The position numbers were made by a program, and so were the translations under genes. From Oscillospiraceae bacterium (GTDB taxonomy: Bacteria; Bacillota; Clostridia; Oscillospirales; Ruminococcaceae), in the NCBI GenBank assembly GCA_022508885.1, contig JAFLUG010000005.1:1-60046 (forward strand): a stretch of DNA of 60,046 bases, in the 5' to 3' direction. The notes under the pieces are model-generated. The model made no database searches. It was not told the DNA's origin and saw only the letters and a program-made list of their open reading frames with translations. Of this stretch, positions 13,155 through 36,141 are shown one piece after another. Positions within the stretch are counted from its first letter, which is position 1, and each line of letters starts with the position of its first letter.

Positions 13155-13622
13155 TCATTTGTCTTTTTTGTCGCGTAAATTCCCGAAAAATCCGGAAAGT
13201 ATCTTTGCGCATTTTTCCTCAAGCACTCTGCTTCTCACTCTCGGAATATGCGTAAATTTCTCGTCAAACAGCGCTGCCACAGAAGCGCACGCGCCGTTTT
13301 TTTCGTCAAACGCCCCGTAGACAAGCCGCTTTATCTGCGCGTTTATGACCGCCCCCGCGCACATGGGACACGGCTCAAGCGTTACATAAAGCGTACAGTC
13401 CGAAAGCCTTCTGTTTTTGAGAGCCTTCGCGGCGCGTTCTATTGCCAAGACCTCCGCGTGAGCGGTGGGAGACTGCAGAGCCTCGCGCTCGTTATACGCT
13501 TCGGAGATTATCTCACCGTTATTATCAACAACTATCGCGCCTACGGGTATCTCACCCGCCTGCGCCGCCTTTTCGGCAAGCGCGAGAGCCTTTTGCATAT
13601 ACTCTTCGTCGGTTAATATCAT
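13155..13622 (-). CDS. tadA: tRNA-specific adenosine deaminase
   Basis: About 155 residues. Zinc-binding and catalytic motifs are HAEVLAIERA (His ligand and Glu proton shuttle) and PCPMCAGAV (two Cys ligands), with the family segment IPVGAIVVD. It deaminates A34 to inosine in tRNA-Arg(ACG). The ATG at 13622 overlaps the stop of the upstream 970-residue gene as ATGA, which fixes the start better than in-frame codons further upstream. The C-terminal part EKFTHIPRVRSRVLEEKCA matches bacterial TadA. Confidence 0.95.
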   Translation of the reverse strand: MILTDEEYMQKALALAEKAAQAGEIPVGAIVVDNNGEIISEAYNEREALQSPTAHAEVLAIERAAKALKNRRLSDCTLYVTLEPCPMCAGAVINAQIKRLVYGAFDEKNGACASVAALFDEKFTHIPRVRSRVLEEKCAKILSGFFGNLRDKKDK

Positions 13623-16531
13623 AAGCGTTTGAAAAACGGAACACCCACGGTAATGACCGCGCTTATCAGTCCGTAAATCAGTATCCACAGACCGTTGAAC
13701 ATATCATACAGCTTAAACAGCATGAATATCACCGCCAGCAAAACGCCCAGACCCGCCGTAAAGATCTGGATTATGGAGCCGATAGTAATTTTCATGCGTA
13801 GTTTTTTCGCGGTCGAAATTCCCTCCGCAAGCGACGAAAACGTTCCCGAAAGAGAAAGTCCCGCGTTGCCGCTTGAAACAAATTTTGTCGACTCGTTGAA
13901 TTCCTCGTGGCAATCAAACGGGATAACCTTGATCACACGGTCTTTTATTCCGAAAGTGTTCTTTATGAAAGAGTTTGTAATAATTCCGTCTACTGTCTTT
14001 ACTATAATCGAAACGTTCTGAGAAACCAGTTTGTTTACCTTTTCCATTACCTGTTTGTCAGCGGAAACCGAAACGAAAAACAAAAGACAGACCTCTCCGC
14101 CCACGGCGAGATAAATAACGTTGTCGTTCTTGGGATTTGCCGCGGCTTCCTTTTTATTGCTCGGCACGGATATCTCGTGAGCTATCATGTGCTCGCGCGT
14201 TCCGAGCAGGACTCTGCGCCTGTCTATCCATCCCATAACGCCGAGATTGTTTTCATATACGATGCCGTTTACGTCCTTCAGAAGTTCTTTTTTATAGTCG
14301 AGCATATTGAACAGCGCGTCCGAGAGAATGCTTCCCGTAGCATAAGCAAGGCTTGCTCCGAGAATGATAGCCTCGTCGATGTTTACCTTTCCGTCGCCGC
14401 GGTTTGAGGGCTTGTCATAGCCGCATATGTTGTCGATCACAACGGTCTGCGGCGGGAAAAGCGCGGACGCCTCCGCCAAAACAGAATTTGTCTCGCTGAA
14501 GCTTTCAACGGCTTCATATCCCAAGATCGCAAAGTTGTTTTTTCTGCCCTTAAACGAAGCAAGCAGAAGCGGTATCGTGACCGTCATAGAGCAGGACAGT
14601 GCCGCGCCCAGACAGCAGATAGCCGAAAGCACCGTAAACGCCCACGAAAGGTTGTTAAGAAACAGCTCGTCGCCGTTTGTGAAAAACGCGATGATCGCAC
14701 CGATAACTGCGGCGATAATAGTAGAAACGGAGACCTTTCCGGATATTCTGTCATAAGCGTCCTCGCAGTAGGCCGAAATGATAAAATCCTTAAGCATTTC
14801 GGTCTTTCTCGCGGCCGCCGTTATGGGCACTCCCGAAACCACGCCCTTGGCAAGCTTTTCCGCGCTTGATTTCCTGCAGAAATCCGCGAAATATTTGGCG
14901 CCGTCTTTTGAAACAAACTCAAAGTTCTTTTTCGCCGTTTTCACCGCTATAAGCTTTGAGAGCGTGTTAAAGCACAGAATACCCAGCGAGACCATGAGAT
15001 AAACATGTGACATCGAGCGCTGGACATATTCTATCCTTAAAAGATAGGGGACAATAGAAGCTATCGCCGCTCCGTGAGCAAACGCGCACAGCGTGTCTCC
15101 GTCGGGACGCAGTTTAAAAAGCCGTGAAAAGCCGTTTGCTATTACCGACGAACAGGTCGCGAACGACAAAACGCCGATAGTCAGCATACAGTAAAGATAA
15201 TTTTCCGTAGCGGAGCGCAAATTTATTATCGTACCGAGCGTTCCCATAACCTGAACATTAGCGGTGTTCAAAATACCGATAACAAGCGTTGCCGCAAACA
15301 GGATACCCGTGATTATAAGTCTCCAGAAAAGTCCCGTTGAAGAACGGCTGAGACGGTCGCGGATAACATTTTCGTCGTCGAGGTCTATCGGCTCGTCGAT
15401 ATCCTCGTCTTCAGGATCGTCCTCGGATTTGTATTCCTCCTCCTCGCTCGGGTTTTCAAGGATAAAGTTTGCTATTCTGCGCTTGCGCTTCTGGGCAAGC
15501 TCGTTGGCTCTGCGTACCTTCTCGATTTCCTCCGGCTCATTTGTCTGTTCTTGTGCTGAGGCGATAACATTTATATTTCCCGAGCTTGTGTCCTCCGTCG
15601 GATATTCCATATCCGGGGGAATTTTCATGGTATATGATTTCTGGCCGTTATCCTCGGCAATCTTCTTGTTCAGGGCGTCTACGATAGACTCGCCGACATT
15701 TCGGCTTATCTGCTTTCCGGTGATAACGGGATTTTCAACTTCCGCGTCCTTGCGGCGGGTGGAAGGCTTATACTCTATGACGTGCTCTTCCTTGCCGATA
15801 TTCTTAAAATCGTTTCCCGCTATCGCGAGCGTGTCGGTCGTGTCATCCTCGGATCTCAGCATATCCGCGACCTTTTCGCGTTTTGCGGCTGGATTTATCA
15901 GATCGAGCATTTCCTCCGGGCTTTGCGCTTCGTTGTCCGCTTTGAGCAGCGCTTTGTTTATTTCGTCAATGCGCTTTTGCTTGCGCATTTTCATAGTATC
16001 CGTCGTCACAAGGTCGCCGCGCGTATGGAAGATGATATCGTCTTCGTCTTCCTCGCTGTCGGACGAATAAACACCCTCGGAGGTATTGTATCCGGCGACG
16101 TATACATCTTCCGCCGTATCGGCAAGCCGTGTATTCTCACCAGCTGCGGCGCCGTTGTTTGAATATTCCTTTACCGTTTCTCCCTCGGCCGTATCGTCAA
16201 AAAGACGTTTTCTTCTCTCCGCCTCTATGGCGTCAGATATCTCCTTCGAGCGACGCTCGTCGGTCTGCTGCTCGGTAAACTGTTTCGCGGCGGCCGTGTC
16301 GCGGCGCTTGTCGGAATACTGATTTATCAGTTGTGTAACGCTCAGATCGGGCTTTGGCTTTTTATCCGTATCGTTCTTTTTCTTCTGCGAGCCCGCGCGT
16401 AAGATCTTATCAAGGTCGTTGTCGTTTATGATATCGGTAACGCTTCCGTCATAAGCGCTTTTCTCAACGTCAAAGCGCGAGTTGTCAACTTCTTTGAGAA
16501 TATTGTCAATATCGTAGTTCTTGTCTGCCAT
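13619..16531 (-). CDS. Degenerate P-type ATPase-like membrane protein with long acidic N-terminus
   Basis: 970 residues. Residues 1-400 are highly charged, low-complexity and probably disordered, with clusters of Asp/Glu (157-166, 363-388). The rest follows the order of a P1B-type ATPase: four membrane segments (about 401-425, 444-467, 480-498, 509-530), a shortened actuator-like stretch (531-600), two membrane segments (602-618, 628-660), a cytoplasmic P/N region, and two last segments (915-938, 950-967). At the DKTGT position there is VVIDNICGYD (Asp700). LLGTREHMIAHEISVP (775-790) aligns by eye with the GxRxLMxxxxIxVP nucleotide-domain segment. The TGE loop, a CPC-type metal motif and GDGxND are absent. 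It is probably catalytically dead; the role is unknown. It starts 26 bp after rlmB and overlaps tadA. Confidence 0.72.
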   Translation of the reverse strand: MADKNYDIDNILKEVDNSRFDVEKSAYDGSVTDIINDNDLDKILRAGSQKKKNDTDKKPKPDLSVTQLINQYSDKRRDTAAAKQFTEQQTDERRSKEISDAIEAERRKRLFDDTAEGETVKEYSNNGAAAGENTRLADTAEDVYVAGYNTSEGVYSSDSEEDEDDIIFHTRGDLVTTDTMKMRKQKRIDEINKALLKADNEAQSPEEMLDLINPAAKREKVADMLRSEDDTTDTLAIAGNDFKNIGKEEHVIEYKPSTRRKDAEVENPVITGKQISRNVGESIVDALNKKIAEDNGQKSYTMKIPPDMEYPTEDTSSGNINVIASAQEQTNEPEEIEKVRRANELAQKRKRRIANFILENPSEEEEYKSEDDPEDEDIDEPIDLDDENVIRDRLSRSSTGLFWRLIITGILFAATLVIGILNTANVQVMGTLGTIINLRSATENYLYCMLTIGVLSFATCSSVIANGFSRLFKLRPDGDTLCAFAHGAAIASIVPYLLRIEYVQRSMSHVYLMVSLGILCFNTLSKLIAVKTAKKNFEFVSKDGAKYFADFCRKSSAEKLAKGVVSGVPITAAARKTEMLKDFIISAYCEDAYDRISGKVSVSTIIAAVIGAIIAFFTNGDELFLNNLSWAFTVLSAICCLGAALSCSMTVTIPLLLASFKGRKNNFAILGYEAVESFSETNSVLAEASALFPPQTVVIDNICGYDKPSNRGDGKVNIDEAIILGASLAYATGSILSDALFNMLDYKKELLKDVNGIVYENNLGVMGWIDRRRVLLGTREHMIAHEISVPSNKKEAAANPKNDNVIYLAVGGEVCLLFFVSVSADKQVMEKVNKLVSQNVSIIVKTVDGIITNSFIKNTFGIKDRVIKVIPFDCHEEFNESTKFVSSGNAGLSLSGTFSSLAEGISTAKKLRMKITIGSIIQIFTAGLGVLLAVIFMLFKLYDMFNGLWILIYGLISAVITVGVPFFKRL

Positions 16532-16557: not shown

Positions 16558-17292
16558 TCATAACCGCTGTTTAACTATTTCGTACATGAGTATTCCCGCT
16601 GAAACAGAGGCGTTGAGTGAATTTACCCTGCCGTTCATCGGAAGCGACACCACCGCGTCGCAGTTTTTCCTTACCAGCCTTGAAAGACCGAAGCCCTCCG
16701 AGCCGACAACGATTGCCGTGCCGCCCGAAAAATCGACCTTGTCATAAGGCTCACCGTCGGCTTCCATTCCGTATACCCAAACGTTGTGTTTTTTCAGAGT
16801 TTTTATCGCGTCCGTGAGATTAGGCACTCTCGCCACCTTTATCCACGCCGCCGCGCCAGCGGAGGTCTTGAACACCGTAGAATTAAGCCCCGCCGAGCGT
16901 CTTTTCGGGATTATAACACCGTCCGCTCCCGCCGCCTCTGCCGTTCTTATTATCGCGCCGAGGTTGTGAGGGTCGGCTATCTCGTCCGCAATGACGATAA
17001 ACGGCGGCTTTCCTCTTTTTTCCGAGACCTCAAGAATATCAGAAAGCTCGGCGTATTCTGCCGCGGCAAGCTCAGCGCAGACACCGCCGTGCTTTTGCGT
17101 TTTGCAAAGTGAGGCAATCTTTTCCGCGCCGACGATCTTAACGACCGCGCCGCGTTCTTTTGCCAAAGCCGAGACCCCGTCTATCTTCAGGTCTTTTTGT
17201 ATAAAGACCGTGTCTATCTCTTTATCCGAGCGCAGCGCTTCTGTCACGGCGTTGCGTCCGAAGATGATTTGTGTTTCGCTGTCTTTTCCCAT
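16558..17292 (-). CDS. rlmB: 23S rRNA 2'-O-methyltransferase RlmB (SpoU family)
   Basis: 244 residues. The N-terminal L30e-like substrate-binding domain opens with QIIFGRNAVTEAL. The SPOUT domain shows ADEIADPHNLGAIIRTAEAA (motif 1), VVGSEGFGLSRLV (motif 2) and SLPMNGRVNSLNASVSAGI (motif 3), which together form the SAM-binding knot. It methylates the ribose of a guanosine in 23S rRNA. It is the first gene of the seven-gene minus operon and has a consensus promoter at 17334-17362. Confidence 0.94.
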   Translation of the reverse strand: MGKDSETQIIFGRNAVTEALRSDKEIDTVFIQKDLKIDGVSALAKERGAVVKIVGAEKIASLCKTQKHGGVCAELAAAEYAELSDILEVSEKRGKPPFIVIADEIADPHNLGAIIRTAEAAGADGVIIPKRRSAGLNSTVFKTSAGAAAWIKVARVPNLTDAIKTLKKHNVWVYGMEADGEPYDKVDFSGGTAIVVGSEGFGLSRLVRKNCDAVVSLPMNGRVNSLNASVSAGILMYEIVKQRL

Positions 17293-20540: not shown

Positions 20541-22334
20541 ATGATAACGAAAGAAAAGCTTAGCAAAGCGGAAAAGAGTTATTTCTGTGGAAATTTAGGC
20601 GCGGTATATTCGCCGGAGAAAACTCTGTTCAGGCTGTGGCAGCCGTTTGCCGAAAAGGCGTTTCTCAGGCTTTACAATACGGAAAACGAGCTTGTTTCCT
20701 CAACGGAGATGAGGCGAAACAACAGTGTTTTCGAGCTTGAGGTCTCAGGTGATTTAGAGGGAACTCAATACGACTTCGCGGTTTTGGAAAATGGCGGACT
20801 GCGCGAGTTTGCGGACTGCTATTCCCGCCTCGTCGACAAAACCGCAAAGCGCGGGATAGTGGTTGACATGCGAAAAAACGCGCCCGACGGCTGGGAGAGC
20901 GACAAGCCGATAGTTGTTGAAAACCCCGTGATCTACGAGCTTTCCGTGCGCGATTTTTCCATGGACGAAAGCGCGGATTTTAAAAACCGCGGGAAATTCT
21001 CGGCTTTCTGTGAGAAAAACGTAAAGAACAAATACGGCGGTCTGTGCGGACTTGAATATATCAAATCCCTCGGCGTTACGCATATTCAGCTTATGCCGAT
21101 ATTCGACTTTGACAGCGATAAAAGCGAATACAACTGGGGCTATAATCCTCGGTTTTATAACGCGCCAAGCGGATATTACTCGCGGAACAACCCTGTTCTT
21201 GAACTGCGCGAGCTGGTTCTCAGCGCCCATAGAGCGGGGCTTGGGGTTATAGCCGACGTCGTTTACAATCACGTTTATGATGCGGAAAGCTCCTCGTTTG
21301 AACGTCAGCTTCCGGGATATTTCTTCCGCGGCGATAAAGAGTTTTCCAACGGCTCGGGCTGTGGAAACGAGTTTGCGAGCGAGCGTATCATGGCGCGGAA
21401 ATTCATTTCGGACAGTGTTGAATTTCTGGCCCGTGAGTATCATTTAGACGGATTTCGGTTCGATCTTATGGGTCTTATGGATATAAAAACCATGCGCCGG
21501 ACAGAGCGAAGACTGCGTAAAATAAACCCATCGGTATTGCTTTACGGCGAGGGGTGGACAGGCGGTTTAAGTCCGCTTTCCGAACGGTTTCGCGCTGTTC
21601 AGAACAACGCGCGCGGGCTTTCGGGCTTTGCGTTTTTCAACGACAGCTTTCGTGACGCTGTACGCGGAAGTGTTTTCGACGTAAACGACCGCGGATTTAT
21701 AAGCGGAGACTCTCAGAAATCCGAGCCTGTCTTGCGTGCAATTTCGGGGAATTATCCCAAGACCTTCTGGACAGAAAACCCCGCACAGACGGTAAATTAT
21801 GTCGAATGCCACGACAACCACACTCTGTATGACAGGTTGGAAATTGCGCTTAACGGCACGGACTCGCAGGAAATAATGCGCGCTGAAAAAATGGCGGCGG
21901 CACTGTTATTGCTTTCATCGGGAATTGTGTTCTTGCATGCGGGACAGGAGTTTATGCGTACAAAAAACGGCAGCGCAAACAGCTATAATCTCCCCGACAG
22001 CATAAACTCGATAAAGTGGGAGCTGACTTGCGAAAACCGAGAGCTGGTCGAGTATTACCGCGGACTCATCGCATTTCGTAAACGATTTATAAATGATATT
22101 CGCGGCGGAGAATTTTCGGAAATTAACGGCGGCTTTGTGATAAAAAGCGAACGGTTTGTAATAATAATCAATCCCGCAAACGAAACCATAACGCTGAATT
22201 TTGACGATGAATGCGAGGTTTTCATTGATAATAATTCCGCTTCTGACAGCCCGCTTTATACTTCAAAACAGCTTTGCTGCGAGAGATTCAGCGTATTAAT
22301 GGCGAGGTGTAAAAACGGTGAAAAAGGAAATTGA
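20541..22334 (+). CDS. pulA: Type I pullulanase-like GH13 enzyme
   Basis: 597 residues, a little shorter than most type I pullulanases (about 650-720). An N-terminal CBM48-like beta domain (LFRLWQPFAEKAFLRLY) is followed by the GH13 barrel. The pullulanase signature YNWGYNPRFYNAPSGYYS is present. Catalytic residues lie in DGFRFDLMGLMD (nucleophile), LLYGEGWTGG (acid/base) and VECHDNHTLYDRL (transition-state Asp). No signal peptide is present, so it should debranch alpha-1,6 links in cytoplasmic glucans. It follows malQ and overlaps the aminopeptidase gene by 17 bp. Confidence 0.92.
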   Translation: MITKEKLSKAEKSYFCGNLGAVYSPEKTLFRLWQPFAEKAFLRLYNTENELVSSTEMRRNNSVFELEVSGDLEGTQYDFAVLENGGLREFADCYSRLVDKTAKRGIVVDMRKNAPDGWESDKPIVVENPVIYELSVRDFSMDESADFKNRGKFSAFCEKNVKNKYGGLCGLEYIKSLGVTHIQLMPIFDFDSDKSEYNWGYNPRFYNAPSGYYSRNNPVLELRELVLSAHRAGLGVIADVVYNHVYDAESSSFERQLPGYFFRGDKEFSNGSGCGNEFASERIMARKFISDSVEFLAREYHLDGFRFDLMGLMDIKTMRRTERRLRKINPSVLLYGEGWTGGLSPLSERFRAVQNNARGLSGFAFFNDSFRDAVRGSVFDVNDRGFISGDSQKSEPVLRAISGNYPKTFWTENPAQTVNYVECHDNHTLYDRLEIALNGTDSQEIMRAEKMAAALLLLSSGIVFLHAGQEFMRTKNGSANSYNLPDSINSIKWELTCENRELVEYYRGLIAFRKRFINDIRGGEFSEINGGFVIKSERFVIIINPANETITLNFDDECEVFIDNNSASDSPLYTSKQLCCERFSVLMARCKNGEKGN

Positions 22335-24135
22335 AGAGCTCAGGCAAATAATGCGCCGCGAAAAAGTATACGCGGTTATTGTACCGACAAGCGACTACCA
22401 CGGCTCGGAATATGTCGGAGAGTATTTTAAGCTGCGCGAATATCTCAGCGGCTTTACGGGCTCGGCGGGTACGCTTGTAGTAACGCTCGAAGAAGCGGCG
22501 CTGTGGACGGACAGCCGATATTTTTTGCAGGCAGAGTGCGAGCTTTCCGGCAGCGGAACTGAACTTATGAAAATGGGCGAAAGCTCAACGCCGAAAATCG
22601 AAAAGTTTCTGCTTGAAAAAATGCCCGAAAATTCCACGCTCGGCTTTGACGGAAGAACGCTTTCACAGGAGTTTGTAAGCCGTCTTAGTAAAACGCTTTC
22701 CGAAAAAAATATCGGTATTTCTTCGGAAACGGATTTCGCAGAACTTGTCTGGAAAGACCGGCCGCCGCTTTCGGCAGAGCCTGTTTTCGAGCTTCCCGAG
22801 CAGATTTGCGGCGTTTCCCGCGCGGAAAAGTTTTCACGGATACGCGAAAAAATGAAAGCTGAACACGCGGATTGTCTTGTAATTTCAGCGCTTGATGAAA
22901 TCGCGTGGACGCTTAATCTTCGCGGAAACGACATAGAATTTTGCCCGCTGTTTTTAGGCTTTATGATGATCTTCAGCGGCGGCAGTCAGACGAAATTGTT
23001 TGCTAATAAAGAAATTTTCAGCGATGAAATTATTGAAAAGCTGAAAGCGGACGGCGTTGAAATTTACGGCTACGGTGAGGTTTACAGTGCGCTGGGAGAC
23101 CTTTCCTGCAATGTCTGGGCAGACCCGAGAGCTGTTAACCACCGCTTTCTGACGTCGCTTGAAGACGCAAAGCTGATTGAAAAATCAAGCCCGATAGAAG
23201 CTATGAAGGCGGTGAAAAATCAGACCGAGATCCTCTGCGTAAAAAACGCGCATCTCAAAGACGGCGTTGCCGTAACGCGCTTTATGAAGTGGCTTAAAAC
23301 GTCGGTTTCAAGCGAAAAAATAACCGAGCTTTCCGCAGCCGAAAAGCTCGAAGAATTCAGAAAACTCGGCGAAAATTATATGGGACAGAGCTTTGCGCCT
23401 ATCATGGCATACGGCGCGCACGGGGCTATAGTGCATTATTCCGCCTCGGAGGAGACCAACGCCGTTATAGAGCCGCGCGGGATGCTGCTTTCGGATACCG
23501 GCGGGCATTATCTCGACGGAACGACCGATATCACGCGCACTATCGTTCTCGGAGAGATATCCGAAGAGGAAAAGCGCGCGTTTACGCTTGTTCTGGCGGG
23601 ACATTTAAACTTGCTTGCGGCAAGATTTCCCGAGGGAACGCGCGGAAGCACCCTTGATTATGCCGCGCGCGAGCCGCTGTGGCAAAACGGTCTTGATTTC
23701 GGACACGGCACGGGACACGGAGTCGGTTTTCTGCTGAATGTTCACGAGGGACCCCAGCGCATAAGCTTTCGCGCGCAGAATGACGCTCCAATGCAGGCGG
23801 GTATGATAACCTCCGACGAGCCGGGGCTTTATGTCGAGGAAAAGTTCGGTATTCGTCACGAAAGCCTTTTGCTTTGCGAAAAGGACGAAAATGATGAAAA
23901 TGATGAAAATGATGAAAATGATGAAAATGATGAAAATGATGAAAACATGGGCTTTCTTCGTTTCAGTCCGCTTACGCTTGTGCCTTTTGACCGCGACGGA
24001 ATTGACGTGAAATATCTTACCTCGCGTCAACTCGAGCTGCTTAATGATTATCACAGGCTTGTTTTTGAAAAGCTCTCGCCGCTGCTCAGCGGGGAAGAAA
24101 AAAAGTGGCTGGAAAAAGCCACGGAGCCGATATGA
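22318..24135 (+). CDS. pepP: Xaa-Pro aminopeptidase, M24B family, with DEN repeat
   Basis: 605 residues. Two N-terminal creatinase-like domains precede the C-terminal pita-bread domain. Metal ligands are visible in DTGGHYLDGTTDITRT (two Asp), HGTGHGVGF (His), ITSDEPGLYVEEKFGIRHES (two Glu). It removes N-terminal residues before proline and probably uses two Mn2+ or similar ions. The start is GTG with GAGGTG upstream; it overlaps pulA by 17 bp. Between the metal-site Glu and the conserved C-terminal tail FLRFSPLTLVPFD there are seven Asp-Glu-Asn units, encoded by a 9-bp tandem repeat (23884-23946). This linker is not part of the usual family sequence. Confidence 0.93.
   Translation: MKKEIEELRQIMRREKVYAVIVPTSDYHGSEYVGEYFKLREYLSGFTGSAGTLVVTLEEAALWTDSRYFLQAECELSGSGTELMKMGESSTPKIEKFLLEKMPENSTLGFDGRTLSQEFVSRLSKTLSEKNIGISSETDFAELVWKDRPPLSAEPVFELPEQICGVSRAEKFSRIREKMKAEHADCLVISALDEIAWTLNLRGNDIEFCPLFLGFMMIFSGGSQTKLFANKEIFSDEIIEKLKADGVEIYGYGEVYSALGDLSCNVWADPRAVNHRFLTSLEDAKLIEKSSPIEAMKAVKNQTEILCVKNAHLKDGVAVTRFMKWLKTSVSSEKITELSAAEKLEEFRKLGENYMGQSFAPIMAYGAHGAIVHYSASEETNAVIEPRGMLLSDTGGHYLDGTTDITRTIVLGEISEEEKRAFTLVLAGHLNLLAARFPEGTRGSTLDYAAREPLWQNGLDFGHGTGHGVGFLLNVHEGPQRISFRAQNDAPMQAGMITSDEPGLYVEEKFGIRHESLLLCEKDENDENDENDENDENDENDENMGFLRFSPLTLVPFDRDGIDVKYLTSRQLELLNDYHRLVFEKLSPLLSGEEKKWLEKATEPI
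23884..23946 (+). repeat. Seven-copy 9-bp coding tandem repeat (Asp-Glu-Asn)
   Basis: Seven in-frame copies of GATGAAAAT (first copy GACGAAAAT, last GATGAAAAC) inside the aminopeptidase gene. Unit size is a multiple of three, so copy-number change keeps the frame. Confidence 0.95.
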
Positions 24136-24245: not shown

Positions 24246-25409
24246 TTATGCTTTCATTTTTGCTTTGTATTCTGCCTTTATCTGTTCAAGCGCGACCGCG
24301 TCCGCTTTGCGCTTTTCGCGTGCCTGATCCTGAATTGCCTGAACCTCGTCGATTCCGTTTACGATAGTCTCCCATGTCTTCTGGAGAGTTTCTACCTGGA
24401 TGGAGGAGGTCGCGGACATGGAGGCAATCATCTTGGACTGCTCAACGGTATTCTGAGCGTTTTTGAGGAGCATTTCGTTGGTTTTCTCGTCGAGCGCCGC
24501 GAGGCTTTCAGCCTGTATCTTCTGCCTTTTCAGCATGATAGCCTGCGCGAGAGCCTGCTTGAAGATAGGCATGGTGATAATGAACGCGGAGTTTATCTTG
24601 CGGACGAGGTTGAGGTTGGAGTATTCCATTGTCTTAAGCATAGGAACAGATTGGAGCGCAACGTTCTCCGCGATTTTCAAGTCCATGACTCTCTGGTCGA
24701 GTATCTCGCGCATCTGCTGGAGGTTTGACAGATCCATGCGGATAGTTCCGTCATCGGGATTTTCCGCAACCTTTTTCTGATAGTCAGCGATAAACGCGTC
24801 AAGCTCCTTTACGCCCTGTTCGCCCGCCATGATATACTTAACCAACTGCTGATAGTAGCCGATATTAGCGTCGTACATTGCGTCAAGCTTGGTGTTTGCC
24901 TGCTGTATTTCATTTTCGTACTGCTTGAGCTGAACGTAGATTTTGTCAATCTCCTTGCCCATTGTGTCATATTTGCTGAGGATCTTTTCAATCTTCTTCT
25001 TGAGATTTCCGAAAAACCCGGGCTTATCGTCCTGAATTTCCTTTATATCAAACTGATCCATTATCGCCGCAAGATTTTTAAGCATAACGCCCGTGTCGTT
25101 TATCTGCGAGATGCTCATGGAATTAAGCACCTGGTCGGACGCCTTGGAAATTTCGTCAGCCGCCTCAGCTCCGAACTTTACGATAGTGTTGCTGTCGTTT
25201 ACGTTAATAGTAGAAACGAGCTTGTCTATTTCGTCGCTTGTAGCGAGCTGCTGCTTGATCTCATCGGTCTTTACAACGATGTTAAAGTTTTTTACTTCCT
25301 CGATCTTTGCTTCGAGTGCCGCGTCTGATACAGCGGTAACAGTTGCGGTTGTTGCAACCTCTGTCTGAGGCTGTGCCTGTGCCGAACCCGGAGTAAACTG
25401 AAGTCCCAT
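24246..25409 (-). CDS. telA: TelA-family toxic anion resistance protein
   Basis: About 387 residues, the TelA (PF05816-type) family. It is almost entirely helical with long heptad-like stretches, for example KKIEKILSKYDTMGKEIDKI and the region around IRMDLSNLQQMREILDQRV. The C-terminal part (TMEYSNLNLVRKINSAFIIT, ALAQAIMLKRQ) matches the conserved family core. TelA proteins give tellurite or toxic-anion tolerance and are recurrent partners of TerD; the biochemical activity is not known. ATG 25409 with GAAAGGA upstream is preferred to a TTG at 25433. It is the last gene of the Ter operon, 65 bp after yceG. Confidence 0.92.
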   Translation of the reverse strand: MGLQFTPGSAQAQPQTEVATTATVTAVSDAALEAKIEEVKNFNIVVKTDEIKQQLATSDEIDKLVSTINVNDSNTIVKFGAEAADEISKASDQVLNSMSISQINDTGVMLKNLAAIMDQFDIKEIQDDKPGFFGNLKKKIEKILSKYDTMGKEIDKIYVQLKQYENEIQQANTKLDAMYDANIGYYQQLVKYIMAGEQGVKELDAFIADYQKKVAENPDDGTIRMDLSNLQQMREILDQRVMDLKIAENVALQSVPMLKTMEYSNLNLVRKINSAFIITMPIFKQALAQAIMLKRQKIQAESLAALDEKTNEMLLKNAQNTVEQSKMIASMSATSSIQVETLQKTWETIVNGIDEVQAIQDQAREKRKADAVALEQIKAEYKAKMKA

Positions 25410-25474
25410 AATATTTTTCCTTTCAATTTTCAATCAGAGCTTGTTGCATTATCCGAAAAGGCTTGCAGGCAAGC

Positions 25475-27649
25475 TCAGTGTTTTCCAAACAGCTTTCCGA
25501 AAAAACCGCTGCTTTTTTCCTCGGAGGGTATTTTGAATTTCGGAACCTCCGTTGCGTACAAAAATTGGTTCATTATATGCTCCTCGAAGGCATCGTTTTT
25601 AACGTAGGTCTCGAGGTTTTTATAGCCCGAGGGCGTATATACCAGCACGTCAAAGCCGATAAGATTGCAAAGCACGATCTGTATGCATTCTTCAAGCGTA
25701 AACGTGTCTTCAATAGCGTCGATGTATATAAGCTTGGGGATTTTCTTTGTAAAGTCAAACCGCTGGATTATCTGTGAAAATTCCTTGCTTAAATTCATTC
25801 CGAAGTGCAATACCGAGCACATAAGCTCGTCTCCCTCAAGCCTCAGAAATCCGCTCGAGCAGGTCTCCTGAAGCTTATAGAACAGCATATCCTGTATCCT
25901 GTCCGGAAGATAGCTGTACTTGTTGAGCGTGCTGTTTTTCAGCCTTTCCGCGTCAATTTCGCCGTTTCTGTAAAACTGTCTGTAGGCGGAAAGGTCCGTC
26001 GCGGTATTGCTGTTATTGTTCGGCTTTTTTACAACGAGAATTGTTTCGGGCGTGAGCTTGTCACGGACGTCGTCCCAGTATCTCCCCGTATCTCCGTCCT
26101 GAACGCCGCTTATCTTGGCGAAAATATTCGGCACCGAAACAAGATTTCCCGCCGTTGAAAATCCCGGCCTAAAGCGCGCCTCCTGCTTCCAGAGAATAGC
26201 TATTTCTTCAAAGGTAGTCTTAAGCGTAACGCTCTGGCTGTTCGGAAACTGAAAGCTTCTGTATATTCCCGTGTCGCCGCCGTACAGCATCGTGTCGAGA
26301 TCGCGCTCGGCGTTGTACGCGACTGTCGAGACCTTCATCTTTACCGCTTTTTTCGGAAATTCTCCGCTTTCCTTGCTTTGCGGAAGGGCGAATATCTGGA
26401 TTCTTCCGCCGACGTTTTTATCGACCGCCGTCTGTTGGTTGCTTAGATCGGGCGAAATATAAATAACGTCAAATCCGCACATTGACATAAATATCAGAAA
26501 GTAAACCTCCGACTGCGAGATATCACCGTAGTACAGCACCACCGGGATATCCTCATAAACCACCGAGTATTTTCGCGCCTGTGTACAGCGGTAAAGCCAC
26601 GTTACAAATTTCATCGCGTAGTTGAACACGACCGTCTGGTTTGCCGTGGACATTTCCGAAAGCAGGTCCTTGAGCGCCTTTCTCGCGAGGGCGGTTCGGG
26701 TCTTGTCGCCCGGGAGATTTATCTGCATTGCCATCGCGTCTATCATTTCCGCGGTGCTGGCTCTTGTCACCGAGCCGAGCGCCTTTACCTCGTCGGCATT
26801 CGGATTTGATAAAGGCTTTTCGATGAAAATAAGCTGTTTTTTCAGCCCCGCAAAGCTTTCCTTAAACTTTACGAGCATATTGGTATAAACGTCGTCGTTG
26901 TCATATCCGAGCAGCGCCGCGCAGTATACGGGGATATCCCCGTCCTCTGTATAAACACCGCCGCCTTTTATAACGCGCGTCCTGCGCTCGACAAGTATAT
27001 CCTCGAAAACGCCCGCCGCTGTGGTAGAAAGCTTTTTCACCAGCCCCTCCACGCGTTCTCCCTCTGCTCTCATCTGCGCGAGAGCCGCCTCCCTGGAAAG
27101 GTCTATCTTGCTGAAATCTATCTGAAGGGGAGAGTTGTGCTGTCCGCTTTTTACGGTTATTTTGTCCTTGAATTTAAGCTTAACATACTCCGTATCGAGT
27201 CCGTAGCTTACGAGCGTTACCTTAACGCCCGCCGCGCTCATCATAAGCAGAAAGTACAGCTCTTTGAGAGAAGCGCTTCCGATGTAAAACAGCGTCTGAG
27301 GCCTTGCCCCGAGATATTTCATCAGCCAGCAGAAAAATACAAAATAGTTGTTTTTCTTGTTTGCTCCGCATTCTTCAACAGCCGCCGCCATGACCTCCGC
27401 CACAGCCGCGCTGTCGCACGGGATATTCGCGTCATGAAGCCACATATCTATGCTTTTCTTTATGTCGTCCGCATTATTGAAGCTTGCCGCGGTATAAGCC
27501 GAGGCTTTTGTAATTTCGTCCATCGAGGCCATCGGCAGTTTTTCTTTAAAGAACAGCCCGTTTTTCTGCGAAGCCGCAAATAATTCGATCAGGATACCCC
27601 GAAAGCTGTCGGGATTGTCATATCCCACATATCTCGTAAATTCCTGCAT
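25475..27649 (-). CDS. yceG: YceG-family Ter-operon protein with three internal repeats
   Basis: 724 residues, similar to the YceG family that accompanies TerD and TelA in Bacillus; those are nearer 540 residues. I see three copies of a beta-alpha-beta unit: 118-160 (LFYIGSASLKELYFLLMMS, then AGVKVTLVSYGLD), 368-412 (VLYYGDISQSEVYFLIFMS, then GFDVIYISPDLS) and 637-685 (LIYIDAIEDTFTLEECIQIV, then GFDVLVYTPSGY). The C-terminus SSGFFGKLFGKH is short, basic and amphipathic. No catalytic motif is recognised. It is presumably cytoplasmic and part of the Ter complex. Confidence 0.8.
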   Translation of the reverse strand: MQEFTRYVGYDNPDSFRGILIELFAASQKNGLFFKEKLPMASMDEITKASAYTAASFNNADDIKKSIDMWLHDANIPCDSAAVAEVMAAAVEECGANKKNNYFVFFCWLMKYLGARPQTLFYIGSASLKELYFLLMMSAAGVKVTLVSYGLDTEYVKLKFKDKITVKSGQHNSPLQIDFSKIDLSREAALAQMRAEGERVEGLVKKLSTTAAGVFEDILVERRTRVIKGGGVYTEDGDIPVYCAALLGYDNDDVYTNMLVKFKESFAGLKKQLIFIEKPLSNPNADEVKALGSVTRASTAEMIDAMAMQINLPGDKTRTALARKALKDLLSEMSTANQTVVFNYAMKFVTWLYRCTQARKYSVVYEDIPVVLYYGDISQSEVYFLIFMSMCGFDVIYISPDLSNQQTAVDKNVGGRIQIFALPQSKESGEFPKKAVKMKVSTVAYNAERDLDTMLYGGDTGIYRSFQFPNSQSVTLKTTFEEIAILWKQEARFRPGFSTAGNLVSVPNIFAKISGVQDGDTGRYWDDVRDKLTPETILVVKKPNNNSNTATDLSAYRQFYRNGEIDAERLKNSTLNKYSYLPDRIQDMLFYKLQETCSSGFLRLEGDELMCSVLHFGMNLSKEFSQIIQRFDFTKKIPKLIYIDAIEDTFTLEECIQIVLCNLIGFDVLVYTPSGYKNLETYVKNDAFEEHIMNQFLYATEVPKFKIPSEEKSSGFFGKLFGKH

Positions 27650-27700
27650 ATCAAACGACCATCCTTTAGCACTTAATTAAATCTATTGAAACCCGCCTTA

Positions 27701-27759
27701 AGACTGTTGAGAAGCCCTCAGTACGGCTGACAAAGCAGATGAGGTTTTATCAACAGTCT
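27701..27759 (-). other. Long-range inverted repeat between terD2 and yceG
   Basis: AGACTGTTGA (27701-27710) and TCAACAGTCT (27750-27759) are perfect 10-bp inverted arms around 39 nt, just after the stop of the TerD-fusion gene. No T-run follows, so it may be an mRNA processing or stability element rather than a terminator. Confidence 0.5.
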
Positions 27760-27763
27760 GAAA

Positions 27764-29011
27764 TCACTCTTCAACCTCGATACCGCATGACTCGCACAGT
27801 CTTGCCATGCCGTCGCGGTATCCCGCTCCTATGGCGGAGATCTTCCATTCGCCTTTATAGATGTAAAATTCAAAAGAAACCGCCGTCGTGACGTCCGAAA
27901 GCTCATTCATGACGAACGAAACGCGCTCGCGGTCTGTCCACAGGCTCACACGCGGGCTTTTCACCATTGAAAAGTTCATTGCGGCTCCGCCCGCGTAGAT
28001 CGAATAAGCAAGCGTGATCTTCTTTACCCGATAGTCGATTTTCGCGAGGTCTATCTCAACATGCCCGTCCCTCTGGGAGTAAACCGCCTCTCCGTTTTCC
28101 GAGCGCTCGTTTCCGAAAAAGACCAGACTGCTGTCAGCCAGCGCTTTACCGTTTTCATCAAGGAGAAAAACATAAGGGTCTATATCCATTTCTCTCGGCA
28201 TTTCCTTACAGCTGAAGAAAACCGTAAACCTTGTGCCTAAGTATTTCGTCAGCGGGACTCTCATTCCGCGTGTAAGCACAAGCGCCTCAAGCGACAAGTC
28301 AGCCTTGTCCGACATTGAAACAACGTCGCTTTTCACTTCCGGCTCAGCTTTCGGAAGTGCCCCGGCGTTTTTCGCCGCGGAAAAATCTCTTTCGGGTGCT
28401 TCGTAAACGTGCTTGTTTACCGCTCTTTCCGCAATTACGGACGGTTTTCCGAAAAGGTAAATTCTCCGGATAAATCCGGTCTTGAACAAAACCTCGGTGT
28501 ACAGATAGGTCTGCGCCGAAATTCCGCTTACCCTTATTGTTATCTCGTTTCTGCCGCGCGTGAGTATCTTCGGCTCGAAGACAACATTTCTCATATCGCA
28601 CTGTATCTCGGTCTTATCGGGAACATTCACCGTCATTTTAAACGAGTTTTCCTCTTCCGGCAGAAACTCTCCGAGCTGAATTGTCCGCGGAACGTCGAAA
28701 AAGCCGTCCTCTTTGCCAAAGCCCGAAACCGCGCCCAATATCTCAACATTTTTCACATCGCACGGAAATTCCGTTTGTATGACTGCGTCCTCGGGGCTTG
28801 CTTCCGTAAGTTCCGCCCTGATGTTTACAAGCTTTACTCCCGCCGATCTTATCTCCAGCGCGGGAGATTTTTTCGCCCATATCGTGGTTGTCGCGCCGAT
28901 TATTTTAAGCGGCTTTGATATAACGACAGGACCCTCAAACTCGCCCGCGGGCAGTGTTATTTCCGTATTGGGGCGCGCTCGGTCGATCATCATGTTCAAA
29001 TTATCGTCCAA
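27764..29011 (-). CDS. Beta-helix-like domain fused to a TerD domain
   Basis: 415 residues. Residues 1-75 resemble coils of a right-handed beta-helix (GEFEGPVVISKPLKIIG, then PALEIRSAGVKLVNI); up to about residue 200 the protein stays beta-rich. Residues 230-415 are a TerD domain: RGMRVPLTK, DPYVFLLDENGKAL, SLVFFGN, then KGEWKISAIGAGYRDGMARL near the end. Where the neighbouring TerD has the acidic calcium loop, this copy has only QRDGHVEIDL, so calcium binding may be weak or lost. The start is probably the TTG at 29011 behind GGGGGTGG; an ATG at 28993 is an alternative. It follows terD by 55 bp in the Ter operon. Confidence 0.8.
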   Translation of the reverse strand: MDDNLNMMIDRARPNTEITLPAGEFEGPVVISKPLKIIGATTTIWAKKSPALEIRSAGVKLVNIRAELTEASPEDAVIQTEFPCDVKNVEILGAVSGFGKEDGFFDVPRTIQLGEFLPEEENSFKMTVNVPDKTEIQCDMRNVVFEPKILTRGRNEITIRVSGISAQTYLYTEVLFKTGFIRRIYLFGKPSVIAERAVNKHVYEAPERDFSAAKNAGALPKAEPEVKSDVVSMSDKADLSLEALVLTRGMRVPLTKYLGTRFTVFFSCKEMPREMDIDPYVFLLDENGKALADSSLVFFGNERSENGEAVYSQRDGHVEIDLAKIDYRVKKITLAYSIYAGGAAMNFSMVKSPRVSLWTDRERVSFVMNELSDVTTAVSFEFYIYKGEWKISAIGAGYRDGMARLCESCGIEVEE

Positions 29012-29066
29012 AGCGCCACCCCCGATTAGTTGTTAGTTTTTAGAGATCAGTGATTAGTGATACGAA

Positions 29067-29651
29067 TTATACGTTTACGCCGTAGCTTTTGCAAAGCGCT
29101 TCGAGACCGCCCTGATATCCCGCGGCAACCGCGTTGAACTTCCAGTCGCCGTTATAGCGGTAGATCTCGCATACAACAAGCGCCGTCTCGATTGAAAATT
29201 CCTCTACGAGGTCAAAGCGCAGGACCTCTTCGCCGTTTACATCGTCGGCGTTGTCTATCTTGAGAACACGAACATAAGAGTTTGAGACCTGACCGAAATT
29301 CTGATTTCTCTGCGGAGCCTCAAAAATAGTAACAGTTACCGCGATTTTTTCTATCTCAGCGGGTATCTTAGAAAAATCTATGATGATAGCCTCGTCGTCT
29401 CCGTCGCCGTCGCCCGTGCGGTTGTCGCCGGTGTGAACCACAGCTCCGTTTCTTCCGTTCAGGTTGTTGTAGAATACAAAGTCCTCGTCCCTTAAGACCT
29501 TGCCATTTGCTCCGAGCAGGAAAACGCAGGCGTCGAGGTCGAAATCCTGTCCGCCGTCATAGCGGTTTGTGTCCCAGCCCAAGCCTATTCTTGCCATTGT
29601 AACGGATTTGTCAAGAGATACTCTCTGACCCTTTGAAAGATTAACAGCCAT
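29067..29651 (-). CDS. terD: TerD-family calcium-binding stress protein
   Basis: 194 residues, a standard TerD. Conserved segments: [13 protein letters not shown] at the start, [38 protein letters not shown], the acidic calcium loop TGDGDGDDE, and the C-terminal [21 protein letters not shown]. TerD proteins bind Ca2+ through these acidic residues and sit at the heart of Ter stress systems, where they protect against tellurite, some phages and colicins in known cases. A strong AAGGAGG site precedes the ATG. It lies between the calcium ATPase gene and the TerD fusion. Confidence 0.95.
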
Positions 29652-29680
29652 AATGATTAAACCTCCTTAAAATTCGTTGT

Positions 29681-32413
29681 TCAGTTATTTTTGGAAACCG
29701 CTTTCGCGATCGCCTTTCTGATAAGGTCAACGGGGATTATCGAGATCGCGGGGATAAGCACTACAAGCCACTCCGTCGCATTAAGTCCCCAGCCGGAGAG
29801 AATGCCCTGTCCGAGGTAGGTCATAAGCACCTGGACCACCGTGATTATGCCGAATACCGCCAAAAAGCCCTTGTTCTTGCTTAAGTTGTCGAAAAGGTTC
29901 ATCTTGTCGGTTCTCGCGTTAAACGCGTTGAATACCGCGATAAAGATGAAGAACGCGAAGTACGCCGTGTGAAGAATGGCGTGAGTCTCATTCTCGATAT
30001 GAACGTCGCGCAAAAATCCCCAGCTTTCGAGATAGCTTGTCGGGTCGCCGCTCGGGAAAGAACCTAAAATCAGCATCGCCAGCGACAGCACAAACGACCA
30101 GCCCGCGCCGACTATTATCTCCGACATCATATATCTGCTGATGATAGGCTCGTTTCTGCGTTTGGGCTTTTCGTGCATAAAGCGCTCCAGCGGCGGCTCT
30201 CCGCCGAACGCAAGCGCCGCGAGGGTGTCCATTACAAGGTTTACCCAGAGTATCTGGATGACCGACAGAGGGTTTGCCACGCCGATAAGCGGACAGATAA
30301 ACGAGATAAGAACAGCCGCGACGTTTATCGTAAGCTGGAATACGATGAATTTTCTGATAGAGTTGAAGATCGTGCGTCCGTAGAGTATCGCGCGGTCAAT
30401 AGAGTTGAAGTTGTCATCGAGTATAACGATATCCGAAGCTTCCTTCGCAACCTCGGTGCCTCCGCCCATTGCAAAACCGACGTCGGCTTTTTTCAGGGCA
30501 GGGGAGTCGTTTACACCGTCGCCTGTCATACCGGCCACAAGGTCAAGCTCCTGCGCAAGCCTTACGAGGCGGCTCTTGTCGGACGGAAGCGCGCGCGCTA
30601 TTACGCGGATATCCTTCAGCTTTGCCTTTATCTCGTCGTCGGACATTTTTGAAAGCTCGTCGGAGGTGAGCATGAGGTTTGAGTCATCGTCAATAAGTCC
30701 TGCTTCCTTTGCTATCGCGACAGCCGTCTCCTTGCGGTCGCCGGTAATCATAACTACCTGAACTCCCGCGCCCTTAACTTCCTTGATGGCGGTAACGGAC
30801 TCGGGACGGACTTCGTCGCGGATTCCCAAGCAGCCCACCAGCGTCCAGTTGTTTCCGTCGGGAAGAGCTTCCTCGCCGAGCGCGTCCGCGCTTGTAGCGA
30901 GCGCCAGCACGCGTATCGCGCGGTTTGCCAGCTCGTCTATCTTGGCGTTGAGCGCCTTCATATCAAACGGCTGTTTGCTTCCGTTTTCGTCATAGTAGTG
31001 CGAGCATCTCTGAAGGATCTTCTCGGGAGCGCCCTTGATGAGCGTAAGCTCGTATTCGCCGTCTATCTGCGTAGCGGAATATTTGTTCGTGGAGTTGAAG
31101 GGAATGTTGTTCACCGCGACAATTTCCGCGTTTGAGGGATTGTCAATACCGTAGCCTAAGATAGCGCGCTCTGTCGCGTTTCCGCCGATAACGCGCCTTT
31201 CGCTGCCCTCGCCGCTTATCATTGACAGCGTGTTTTTGTGAATGGAAAGCGCAAGCAGTTCCTTAAGCTTTCCGTTTACGTCGTTCATTGTCTTGTATTC
31301 ATTGACCGCTCCGTCGATAAAGTCTATCGCCTCAAGCTTGCCCTTTGTGATAGTACCCGTCTTGTCGGAAAACAGAATGTTGAGCGAGCCTGCGGTCTCG
31401 ATTCCCGCGACTTTGCGCACAAGAACGTTGTCCTTTAACATTTTGCCCATATTTTGCGCGGATACTATCGCTATCATCAGCGGCAGACCCTCGGGCACCG
31501 CCATAACTATGATGATGACCGCAAGCATTACCGCCTGGATCACCGCTTCGACTATCGCCATCCACGCGACCTCTCCCGCGGGAGCTAAAAACGCCATGGG
31601 GTCAAAGCCTGTGTCGAAGAAGATCGTTTTCGCAAGCATTGCGATAGCTATCGCGATACCGCCGATATAGCCGAATTTCGAAATACCGTCCGCAAGGTTT
31701 CCGAGCTTGAGTTTAAGAGGAGTTTCTCTGTCGTCGTCTGTCTGAAGCTCGCTTGCTATCTTACCGTAAACCGACTTGTCGCCTACGACCGTGACCTGCA
31801 TTACGGCGTTTCCCGAGCACACCACCGCACCTCTGAAAACCTTGTATTCGTTGTCGAAATTCGTGTTTTCGTCAGTATCCGTCCAGCCCTCGGGGACAGC
31901 TTTTTTCTTTGCCTCGCGGCTTTCGCCGTTAAGGACCGACTGGTCTACCTTTATGTCGCCGTCGATGATGATACCGTCCGCGGGGATCTTATCTCCCGAT
32001 TGAAGCAATATCGCGTCGCCGATAACGATATCGTTTATCGCAACCTCGGAGATAACGCCGTTGCGGTAGGTTTTCACCATTATCCTCGAGGCTTCTTCCT
32101 GAAGCTTCTGAAAAGCGTTTTCGTTTCTGTATTCGGAGAATGTCGAAACAAGCGTCGCCAGACAAATAGCGATAAATATTCCGAGCGGCTCATACCATTC
32201 GGGCGCGCCCTCTTTTATTACTCCTGTAATTCCGAGAACCGCCAGCACAACGTTTATCAGAAGCGCGACGATAAGGATCTTTATCATCGGGTCGCCAAGG
32301 TTTCCCTTTAGTTTATCCCAGAAGCTTTCGCTTGCCTGTTCTGTCATGGAGTTGTCGCCGTATTTTGCTTTGCTTTCGGCAGCCTCCTGATCTGTTAAAC
32401 CGAATTTCTTCAT
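29681..32413 (-). CDS. PMCA-type calcium-translocating P-type ATPase
   Basis: 910 residues, P2-type. An N-terminal cation-ATPase domain is followed by two membrane helices, the actuator domain, the M4 calcium-site motif VPEGLPL (306-312), the phosphorylation motif SDKTGTIT (Asp350), MITGDRKETA, and the hinge MTGDGVNDSPALKKAD. The C-terminal six-helix region includes LWVNLVMDTLAALAFGGEPP. The actuator loop reads NGES (162-165) rather than TGES. It should export Ca2+ from the cytoplasm with ATP. It sits inside the Ter operon, 29 bp before terD; no TerC gene is seen, so it may supply the ion transport part of this system. Confidence 0.92.
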   Translation of the reverse strand: MKKFGLTDQEAAESKAKYGDNSMTEQASESFWDKLKGNLGDPMIKILIVALLINVVLAVLGITGVIKEGAPEWYEPLGIFIAICLATLVSTFSEYRNENAFQKLQEEASRIMVKTYRNGVISEVAINDIVIGDAILLQSGDKIPADGIIIDGDIKVDQSVLNGESREAKKKAVPEGWTDTDENTNFDNEYKVFRGAVVCSGNAVMQVTVVGDKSVYGKIASELQTDDDRETPLKLKLGNLADGISKFGYIGGIAIAIAMLAKTIFFDTGFDPMAFLAPAGEVAWMAIVEAVIQAVMLAVIIIVMAVPEGLPLMIAIVSAQNMGKMLKDNVLVRKVAGIETAGSLNILFSDKTGTITKGKLEAIDFIDGAVNEYKTMNDVNGKLKELLALSIHKNTLSMISGEGSERRVIGGNATERAILGYGIDNPSNAEIVAVNNIPFNSTNKYSATQIDGEYELTLIKGAPEKILQRCSHYYDENGSKQPFDMKALNAKIDELANRAIRVLALATSADALGEEALPDGNNWTLVGCLGIRDEVRPESVTAIKEVKGAGVQVVMITGDRKETAVAIAKEAGLIDDDSNLMLTSDELSKMSDDEIKAKLKDIRVIARALPSDKSRLVRLAQELDLVAGMTGDGVNDSPALKKADVGFAMGGGTEVAKEASDIVILDDNFNSIDRAILYGRTIFNSIRKFIVFQLTINVAAVLISFICPLIGVANPLSVIQILWVNLVMDTLAALAFGGEPPLERFMHEKPKRRNEPIISRYMMSEIIVGAGWSFVLSLAMLILGSFPSGDPTSYLESWGFLRDVHIENETHAILHTAYFAFFIFIAVFNAFNARTDKMNLFDNLSKNKGFLAVFGIITVVQVLMTYLGQGILSGWGLNATEWLVVLIPAISIIPVDLIRKAIAKAVSKNN

Positions 32414-32493
32414 TTCAGAGTTCCTTTCTAAAAGTAACTTAAAATTATGTCACGCGCACAGCGCATTAACTAACAACTGTTGACCAATTGCCA

Positions 32494-33969: not shown

Positions 33970-33970
33970 T

Positions 33971-35458: not shown

Positions 35459-35499
35459 TAAAAATCCTCCCGAAAATCAAACGAAAGCGGATAGTTGCC

Positions 35500-36141
35500 T
35501 CAGGGAACAATAACGAATCCCTGAGGAGGCGGAGGAAGCTCGATGGCTTCTCCCGGCTTTGCGTCGATGCTCTTCGACGAGACCTGGATGGAGCTTGATA
35601 CCCACGCGAAAAACTGTGCCATATCTCCCGCCGTAAGATTGTTCATCATAAGCACGTTGTTTGTAATTTTCTTGAGCGCGTTGGCGTTGGCGTTCGCGCC
35701 CGCTCCGCAGGCGATTATGTTGCCTGTCGACACCTGCTTTATCGCGTCGATGCCTTCGTCGAGATTATCTGTCGGCGCGCCGTCCGTCATAAGGAAAACC
35801 AGCGGCTTCCAGTCGCCCTTCTGAGTGTCAGTGGAAGTGCGGACCTCGTTTTTGATACAGTCAGCCAGTACTTTGAGCGCGCCGCCGAGAGCCGTGGCTC
35901 CGCCCGCGCTAAGCTGAGGCTCTTTAAATACCATAAGCTCCGTAAGCGGGCATATCTGCCTCGCAGAGCTGTCAAACGTAATGATCGAGAGATACGCGGT
36001 CTCGAGGGCCTGGGGGTCGCCCTTAAGCTCCGATAAAAGCGTTTTAAGTCCCTGTTTTACGGCTTCAATAGGCTCTCCCGCCATAGAGCCGCTGCAGTCA
36101 AGAAGCAGATATACGGGAAGCCGTCTTATATAGTCAGACAT
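35500..36141 (-). CDS. terY: TerY-like von Willebrand factor A domain protein
   Basis: 213 residues, a single VWA domain. The MIDAS site is complete: DCSGSMAGEP (Asp15, Ser17, Ser19), GGATALGGAL (Thr), and FLMTDGAPTD (Asp). No signal peptide, so cytoplasmic. TerY-like proteins are found with a PP2C phosphatase and a kinase as a three-gene phosphorylation unit within Ter systems. First gene of the operon, behind a GGAGGA site and the promoter at 36225-36253. Confidence 0.92.
   Translation of the reverse strand: MSDYIRRLPVYLLLDCSGSMAGEPIEAVKQGLKTLLSELKGDPQALETAYLSIITFDSSARQICPLTELMVFKEPQLSAGGATALGGALKVLADCIKNEVRTSTDTQKGDWKPLVFLMTDGAPTDNLDEGIDAIKQVSTGNIIACGAGANANANALKKITNNVLMMNNLTAGDMAQFFAWVSSSIQVSSKSIDAKPGEAIELPPPPQGFVIVP

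Follow-up and report, generated by a model that had tools for sequence, protein, structure and literature searches.

The 60,046-nucleotide stretch of DNA that we analyzed (the window, at its full length) comes from contig JAFLUG010000005.1 of an Oscillospiraceae bacterium in the order Oscillospirales (assembly GCA_022508885.1). The window encodes a 970-residue protein that has the architecture of the CopA-like P1B ATPases and lacks their catalytic motifs, which we call the pseudo-P1B-ATPase. The gene is a single open reading frame (ORF) on the minus strand (Table 1), as a preliminary description of this DNA had proposed without naming the strand. It lies between rlmB, which encodes a 23S rRNA methyltransferase, and tadA, which encodes a tRNA deaminase.

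Hydropathy analysis identified eight hydrophobic segments in the 4+2+2 order of P1B ATPases (residues 405–423, 446–464, 480–498, and 512–530; 600–618 and 638–656; 920–938 and 948–966). A ninth hydrophobic stretch, at residues 805–823, is inside the cytosolic domain. The core is preceded by an acidic tail of 396 residues, with 96 Asp or Glu and 61 Lys or Arg. By charge-hydropathy, the only measure of disorder that we used, all eight of the sections of the tail that we tested were classed as disordered. So both the helix plan and the roughly 400 acidic, disordered residues of the preliminary description were borne out.

Table 1. Features of the pseudo-P1B-ATPase gene and of the genes on either side, with positions in the window.
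Feature	Position	Strand	Basis
Pseudo-P1B-ATPase gene P0001 (970 residues)	13619–16531	-	Single ORF; CopA model, E = 1.9e-8
Residues 1–396, acidic N-terminal tail	15344–16531	-	Predicted disordered by charge-hydropathy
Residues 6–15, YDIDNILKEV, recurrent motif of the tail (FSLDDILAEF type)	16487–16516	-	Pattern counts in tails
Residues 405–530, membrane segments 1–4	14942–15319	-	Hydropathy
Residues 531–599, short loop at the position of the P1B actuator (A) domain, no TGE	14735–14941	-	Loop lengths; TGES columns
Residues 600–656, membrane segments 5–6, CPC of true P1B pumps not kept	14564–14734	-	Hydropathy; column counts
Residues 657–919, remnant of the P and N domains	13775–14563	-	hhalign; family profile against 3rfu
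Residues 687–694, EASALFPP, true equivalent of the DKTGT segment	14450–14473	-	Agreeing alignments
Residues 700–704, DNICG, earlier proposal for DKTGT, beginning 13 residues after the true column	14420–14434	-	Alignment register
Residues 846–848, TVD, equivalent of TGD	13988–13996	-	Asp848 kept in 109/112
Residues 920–966, membrane segments 7–8	13634–13774	-	Hydropathy
rlmB, 23S rRNA (guanosine 2251) 2'-O-methyltransferase	16558–17292	-	TIGR00186, 236.7 bits (cut-off 160.15)
tadA, tRNA adenosine(34) deaminase	13155–13622	-	NF008113, 156.6 bits (cut-off 150)

Standard models recognize the protein weakly. A Pfam scan gave no match above the cut-off, and no heavy-metal-binding domain in the acidic tail. 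The CopA model of NCBIfam matched at E = 1.9e-8 (33 bits, where the cut-off is 1316), and the model for the heavy-metal ATPase subfamily matched at E = 3.6e-7, which is also far below its cut-off. Among structures, we found PDB entry 3rfu, a copper efflux ATPase (which we take to be CopA from Legionella pneumophila), at E = 4.4e-9 with the single sequence and at E = 1.2e-32 with a profile of the family (hmmsearch). When 38 family members were compared with the CopA model, 35 had a match with E no higher than 1, and the best reached 4.6e-17. Using hhalign, the family aligned to the two intact P1B pumps of its own genome at E = 4.9e-23, and to 28 intact P1B pumps at E = 1e-40. The latter alignment spans the membrane domain and the P and N domains (599 columns, a length that reflects the low mact setting). 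In the reverse direction, the family profile picks up P-type pumps from throughout the phylum, with scores as high as 136 bits. Together, the profile, PDB, and hhalign matches make a solid case, at the level of sequence comparison, that the protein and its family descend from P1B (CopA-like) ATPases, with a similarity beyond chance. The preliminary description had proposed this ancestry.

The P1B comparison set began as 29 loci. We dropped one of them (L115), which has a TAG inside and no single open frame that shows all three pump motifs. The remaining 28 pumps carry all three motifs because they were selected for them. In a tree of these pumps with 112 members of the family, the pumps form a clade (support of 1.0). 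The tree is midpoint-rooted, and the 112 members do not form one clade in it because the root falls among them; the split of 28 from 112 is identical when the tree is unrooted.

These 112 members come from a sample of 117 genomes of the order, a group of gut bacteria, with completeness of at least 90%. Each of the 112 genomes has exactly one match to the profile (E of 1e-40), and 18 of the members, L001 among them, had gone into the search profile and so are matched by construction. One further locus (L036) is from a genome that is 86% complete, which places it outside the sample. In the five genomes without the gene, no match exceeds about 110 bits, which is the level of true pumps. Five absences compare with about 4.2 expected from genome incompleteness. 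Among near genomes, 55 of 61 match the single-sequence query at E of 1e-3, and some of the weak matches might be true pumps. In a draw of 196 genomes from the class, nine matched, and all nine belong to the order (the draw may also include order genomes that did not match). In a draw of 299 genomes from the phylum, three genomes from the order scored 473–780 bits, and the others scored at most 136 bits among the matches listed.

The gene is under purifying selection. For 11 pairs of sequences from the genus, the ratio of nonsynonymous to synonymous substitution rates (dN/dS) was 0.04–0.11 for the core and 0.06–0.19 for the tail. The ratio is rough in some pairs because dS is above 1; the four pairs with dS below 0.5 for the core gave 0.057–0.085. 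Also, 111 of the 112 matches have no internal stop codon (the exception is in genome G058). Given the low dN/dS and the near absence of stops, the pseudo-P1B-ATPase is a working gene that is present in a single copy across the order. The gene is broken in G047 and in a member of the genus, G013. In locus L032 and at G047:C45:25787-27441, the gene is split over two frames, which could be assembly errors or real breaks.

P-type ATPases are defined by an aspartate that is phosphorylated. The preliminary description read DKTGT as DNICG, with Asp700 as the phospho-acceptor, and this assignment fails. A single register was obtained from hhalign, from hmmsearch against 3rfu, and from a MAFFT merge, and it places E687-A-S-A-L-F-P under D-K-T-G-T-I-T. 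The phospho-Asp column is thus Glu687, 13 residues before Asp700. Also, residue 700 is far from invariant: it is aspartate only in L001–L004 (4 of 30 rows from the genus), and the other rows have N, T, K, V, S, or R. Four alignments and the variability of this residue rule out Asp700 as the equivalent of the DKTGT aspartate.

None of the 112 cores contains DKTGT or GDGxND, so our search for orthologs with both motifs intact came up empty. The profile alignment shows a deletion where the GDGxND loop would be. (DKTG strings do occur twice, in L031 and L216, far out in the N-terminal tails.) The phospho-Asp column contains Ser in 26 members, Asp in 21, Thr in 21, Arg in 9, Glu in 7, and Asn in 6, besides other residues. 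There is no TGE in the window's protein, and the TGES columns are gapped or unconserved across the family. The preliminary description had noted that both TGE and GDGxND are missing from the single sequence. The loop at the position of the actuator domain is short (median of 62.5 residues, range 52–87). The P-domain lysine column is not conserved. The metal site (CPx) is not conserved either: the first Cys column is Cys in just 4 of 112 members, and Cys is not among the commonest residues at the second. The Pro column between them is Pro in 80 of 112, but Ala in the window's protein, which has A-A-L at residues 643–645. In the N domain, the His of the His-Pro pair is found in 0 of 112 members and the Pro in 52. 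The first Gly of GxG is found in 21 members and the second in 108, so the combination of His-Pro and GxG that marks the N domain is absent. At the sequence level, then, a pump cycle is not possible: the phospho-acceptor consensus, GDGxND, a conserved TGE, a conserved P-domain lysine, and a conserved CPC are all missing. Catalytic residues have been lost while the gene is under purifying selection, as expected for a pseudoenzyme, and the claim that a catalytically dead pump has been kept at full length agrees with the sequences of the family.

The DKTGT segment has been rebuilt rather than eroded. The column of its Lys is Asp in 87 of 112 members (Ala in 12, Glu in 7, Ser in 6), and the column of its Gly is Asp in 78 and Glu in 23 (101 together), with other residues in the rest. 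These are followed by a hydrophobic residue, mostly L, V, or I, and then by Phe (96/112) and Pro (91/112). A loose pattern for this segment, D-x-[DE]-hydrophobic-F-P (the D-x-[DE]-L-F-P type), is present in 81 of 112 cores. Most members also have T-x-D-x-N-[IV]-T at an old active-site loop. The best-kept residues are Gly777 (111/112), Asp848, which is the Asp of TGD (109/112), and Gly764 (108/112). The window's protein departs from the order at five of the best-conserved positions (Ala688, Ala690, Val822, Ile850, and Ser957) and so is a divergent member.

Most members have a long tail: it has at least 80 residues in 100 of 112, and the median is 281. The tail motif is at the first residues of the protein, as YDIDNILKEV in the window's protein and as FSLDDILAEF, FNLDDILAEV, and similar sequences in distant families. 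A relaxed pattern for this motif matched 42 of the 100 tails of at least 80 residues, where 200 shuffles gave a mean of 0.17; in 41 of the 42, the match falls in the first 90 residues. A strict form was found in 27 of 112 members. The relaxed pattern was written post hoc, from related sequences, so these counts show conservation and are not a probability. The strict motif was present in just two of the 1946 other ORFs (100 residues or longer) from the 112 loci. One of these two is the front portion of the gene that is split in L032. At the DNA level, a pattern for DDILxE occurs at nine places in the window's own genome, none of which is in what is clearly the tail of a membrane protein. The window's own version of the motif, DIDNILKE, falls outside this stricter pattern. 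One of the nine places (L150, at C91:8488) is in a frame of 239 residues that has FNLDDILNEL close to its start. Family f10 (L038, L172, L185, L196, L208, L218, L227, L237, and L245) has the core with almost no N-terminal tail. Four of the f10 genomes, from genus g243, have no match to spoIVA, and one g243 genome does have it.

The conserved neighbor of the pseudo-P1B-ATPase is rlmB, which precedes it in the same orientation in 105 of 106 loci that could be evaluated (105 of 112 in total). In six of the other seven loci the contig runs out, and in L046 the stretch examined does not include rlmB. The two ORFs adjoin (a gap of -200 to 1000 bases) in 102 of 112 loci, with a median gap of 21.5 bases. 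In L032, L167, and L168, rlmB ends at most 3200 bases before the start of the core; these are one split gene and two ORFs with over-long starts. We did not find a fusion of RlmB and the pseudo-ATPase among the ORFs of the 112 loci. Beyond this pair, the neighbors vary: the largest cluster of proteins directly downstream of the pseudo-ATPase accounts for 22 of 101 loci and includes EF-G-like proteins, and the largest cluster upstream of rlmB accounts for 5 of 96. The EF-G-like protein, of about 690 residues, is 3' of the pseudo-ATPase in about 22 of 101 loci (L040, L047, L157, and others). Pfam was run on 58 of the 101 downstream proteins, of which 21 had EF-G domain IV.

In the window, the downstream genes are tadA, a polysaccharide-flippase-like gene (with a weak NCBIfam match to HfsF, below the cut-off), rimM, trmD, and era. 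The preliminary description placed the pseudo-ATPase in a tRNA/rRNA modification operon and linked it to tadA. From the coordinates, the stop codon of the pseudo-ATPase does overlap the start codon of tadA as ATGA (13622–13619). Also, tadA is the next gene at 29 of 30 loci from the genus, and the remaining one ends at its contig end. Across the order, tadA is downstream at 1 of 112 loci, which is the window's own, and this rules it out as a conserved partner beyond the genus. So the link to rRNA modification, via rlmB, stands order-wide, and the link to tadA is limited to the genus. Four of the five genomes without the gene also lack a match to rlmB (E of 1e-20), and the fifth, G358, has one. 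We do not claim co-loss because five absences are about what genome incompleteness would give.

Our preferred reading is that the pseudo-P1B-ATPase is a non-enzymatic membrane protein that derives from a CopA-like P1B pump and acts as a scaffold or sensor that binds a cytosolic partner. We give this reading a probability of roughly 0.5. The pump would have become non-enzymatic before the order diversified, and it is now a single-copy core gene. All eight membrane segments are retained, along with a compact remnant of the P and N domains in the cytosol, and in most members the old active-site loops of this remnant have been rebuilt as D-x-[DE]-L-F-P and T-x-D-x-N-[IV]-T. The remnant, together in most families with the acidic tail and its N-terminal motif, would bind the partner at the membrane. 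A scaffold or regulatory role, which the preliminary description also suggested, is what we infer from this combination of features. Because rlmB is a nearly inseparable neighbor, the protein may be connected with ribosome maturation, or the two genes may at least be strictly co-expressed.

It is speculative that the partner is RlmB or the ribosome. A more specific form of this idea is that, across the whole order, a copper pump became a dedicated membrane adaptor for RlmB or for late maturation of the 50S subunit, with the dead core and the disordered tail tethering either the methyltransferase or a subunit under assembly to the membrane. This could explain why rlmB and the pseudo-ATPase stay together amid reshuffled neighbors, and we consider it a tentative idea that is probably wrong.

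Several observations weigh against a non-enzymatic scaffold or sensor. A shared operon need not imply a physical partnership. The window's protein lacks D-x-D (it has Ala688 and Ala690) and has Ile850 instead of Asn, so these residues are not essential in every member. All nine members of f10 have tails of just 12–20 residues, so the tail is not required everywhere. Finally, 21 of the 112 cores contain a TGE string at some position, and 19 contain a [CST]P[CHS] string, although the corresponding columns are not conserved.

One alternative is transport without ATP: a passive carrier, a channel, or a flippase might reuse the P-type membrane domain. The eight segments are kept, and some of the conserved positions are in or near them (Trp in 105 of 112 members at column 957, Pro in 83 at column 960, Gly467 in 91, and Pro654 in 79). 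On the other hand, the CPC metal site is not conserved, and the large cytosolic remnant and the tail would need a separate reason, so we think that transport is unlikely.

Residual catalysis would suit the near-invariance of Asp848 and the D-x-[DE] that most members have in the old loop (87 Asp at its first position and 101 Asp or Glu at its last, as above). The protein might be a HAD-like phosphatase that uses D-x-D in place of DKTGT, or it might be a nucleotide-binding sensor. Also, the exact phospho-Asp column is occupied by Asp in 21 of 112 members, L031 and L158 among them. But GDGxND and the P-domain lysine are both needed for catalysis, and in this family the former is deleted and the column of the latter is not conserved. 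HAD phosphatases are marked by DxDx[TV] as motif I along with later motifs, and the window's protein has E-A-S-A; the acidic motif of the GDGxND type is absent, and the lysine column of the family is not conserved. The N-domain counts (His in 0 of 112 and Pro in 52) also count against this alternative, and we consider residual catalysis of either kind to be quite improbable.

As nearly the whole order may sporulate, the gene might have been kept as a sporulation protein; of the 117 genomes sampled, 108 gave a match to spoIVA. However, eight of the nine genomes in which spoIVA was not matched retain the pseudo-ATPase (some of the nine may lack spoIVA only because their assemblies are incomplete), and its linkage is to rlmB. 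This weakens a role in sporulation only, for which we see little chance. That the gene is a decaying metal-pump pseudogene, as the lost motifs, the internal stop in G058, and the broken copies in G047 and G013 might suggest, is ruled out for practical purposes by the low dN/dS of the core, by the single match in 112 of 117 genomes with 111 free of internal stops, and by the new conserved motif at the DKTGT site.

The window contains other genes of note. A tellurite/stress-type cluster at 24246–36141 (minus strand) encodes TelA, a YceG_bac protein, two TerD-domain proteins, a PMCA-type Ca2+ P-type ATPase (29681–32413), a protein-kinase-like protein, a PP2C phosphatase, and a VWA protein. The protein at 22318–24135 (plus strand), which is presumably similar to aminopeptidase P, has an in-frame ENDENDENDENDEN run near its C-terminus. 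The gene at 39627–40763 (minus strand) encodes what we take to be a SpoIVB-like PDZ serine peptidase, which agrees with the spoIVA match in the same genome.

The family resembles the CopA-like P1B ATPases (3rfu) in its eight-segment plan, its domain order, its alignable P and N domains, and its conservation of the N-domain glycine pair (Gly764 and Gly777) and of the Asp of TGD. Unlike P1B pumps, it lacks DKTGT, GDGxND, and a conserved TGE, P-domain lysine, or CPC, and it has a short A-loop and an acidic tail without a Pfam heavy-metal-binding domain. Pseudoenzymes such as dead kinases and dead proteases are kept for binding or regulation, and our family resembles them in being a conserved, full-length, dead descendant of an enzyme, although those pseudoenzymes have other folds. 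In the open-access literature, we did not find a paper that combines terms for pseudoenzymes with P-type ATPases. We also found nothing about this family in the open-access literature that we searched, which mostly does not include subscription papers. From their description, CtpH and CtpI of Mycobacterium tuberculosis can be set beside the family as isolated bacterial P-type proteins; the cited passage of a 2023 review makes no mention of a loss of their catalytic motifs (PMC10654040). The review describes CtpH and CtpI as uncharacterized and expects more families in prokaryotes (PMC10654040). Judging from the sequences, our family is a pseudoenzyme clade of P1B ATPases.

The linkage to rlmB gives a concrete and testable handle on the function of the pseudo-P1B-ATPase. 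If the adaptor idea is true, then a membrane protein is joined with rRNA modification; we know of no other link of this kind, which we did not search for as such. More broadly, a family that is found across an order, in a single copy and under strong selection, and that has kept the architecture of a P-type ATPase without its catalytic motifs, would show that this fold has another use in bacteria.

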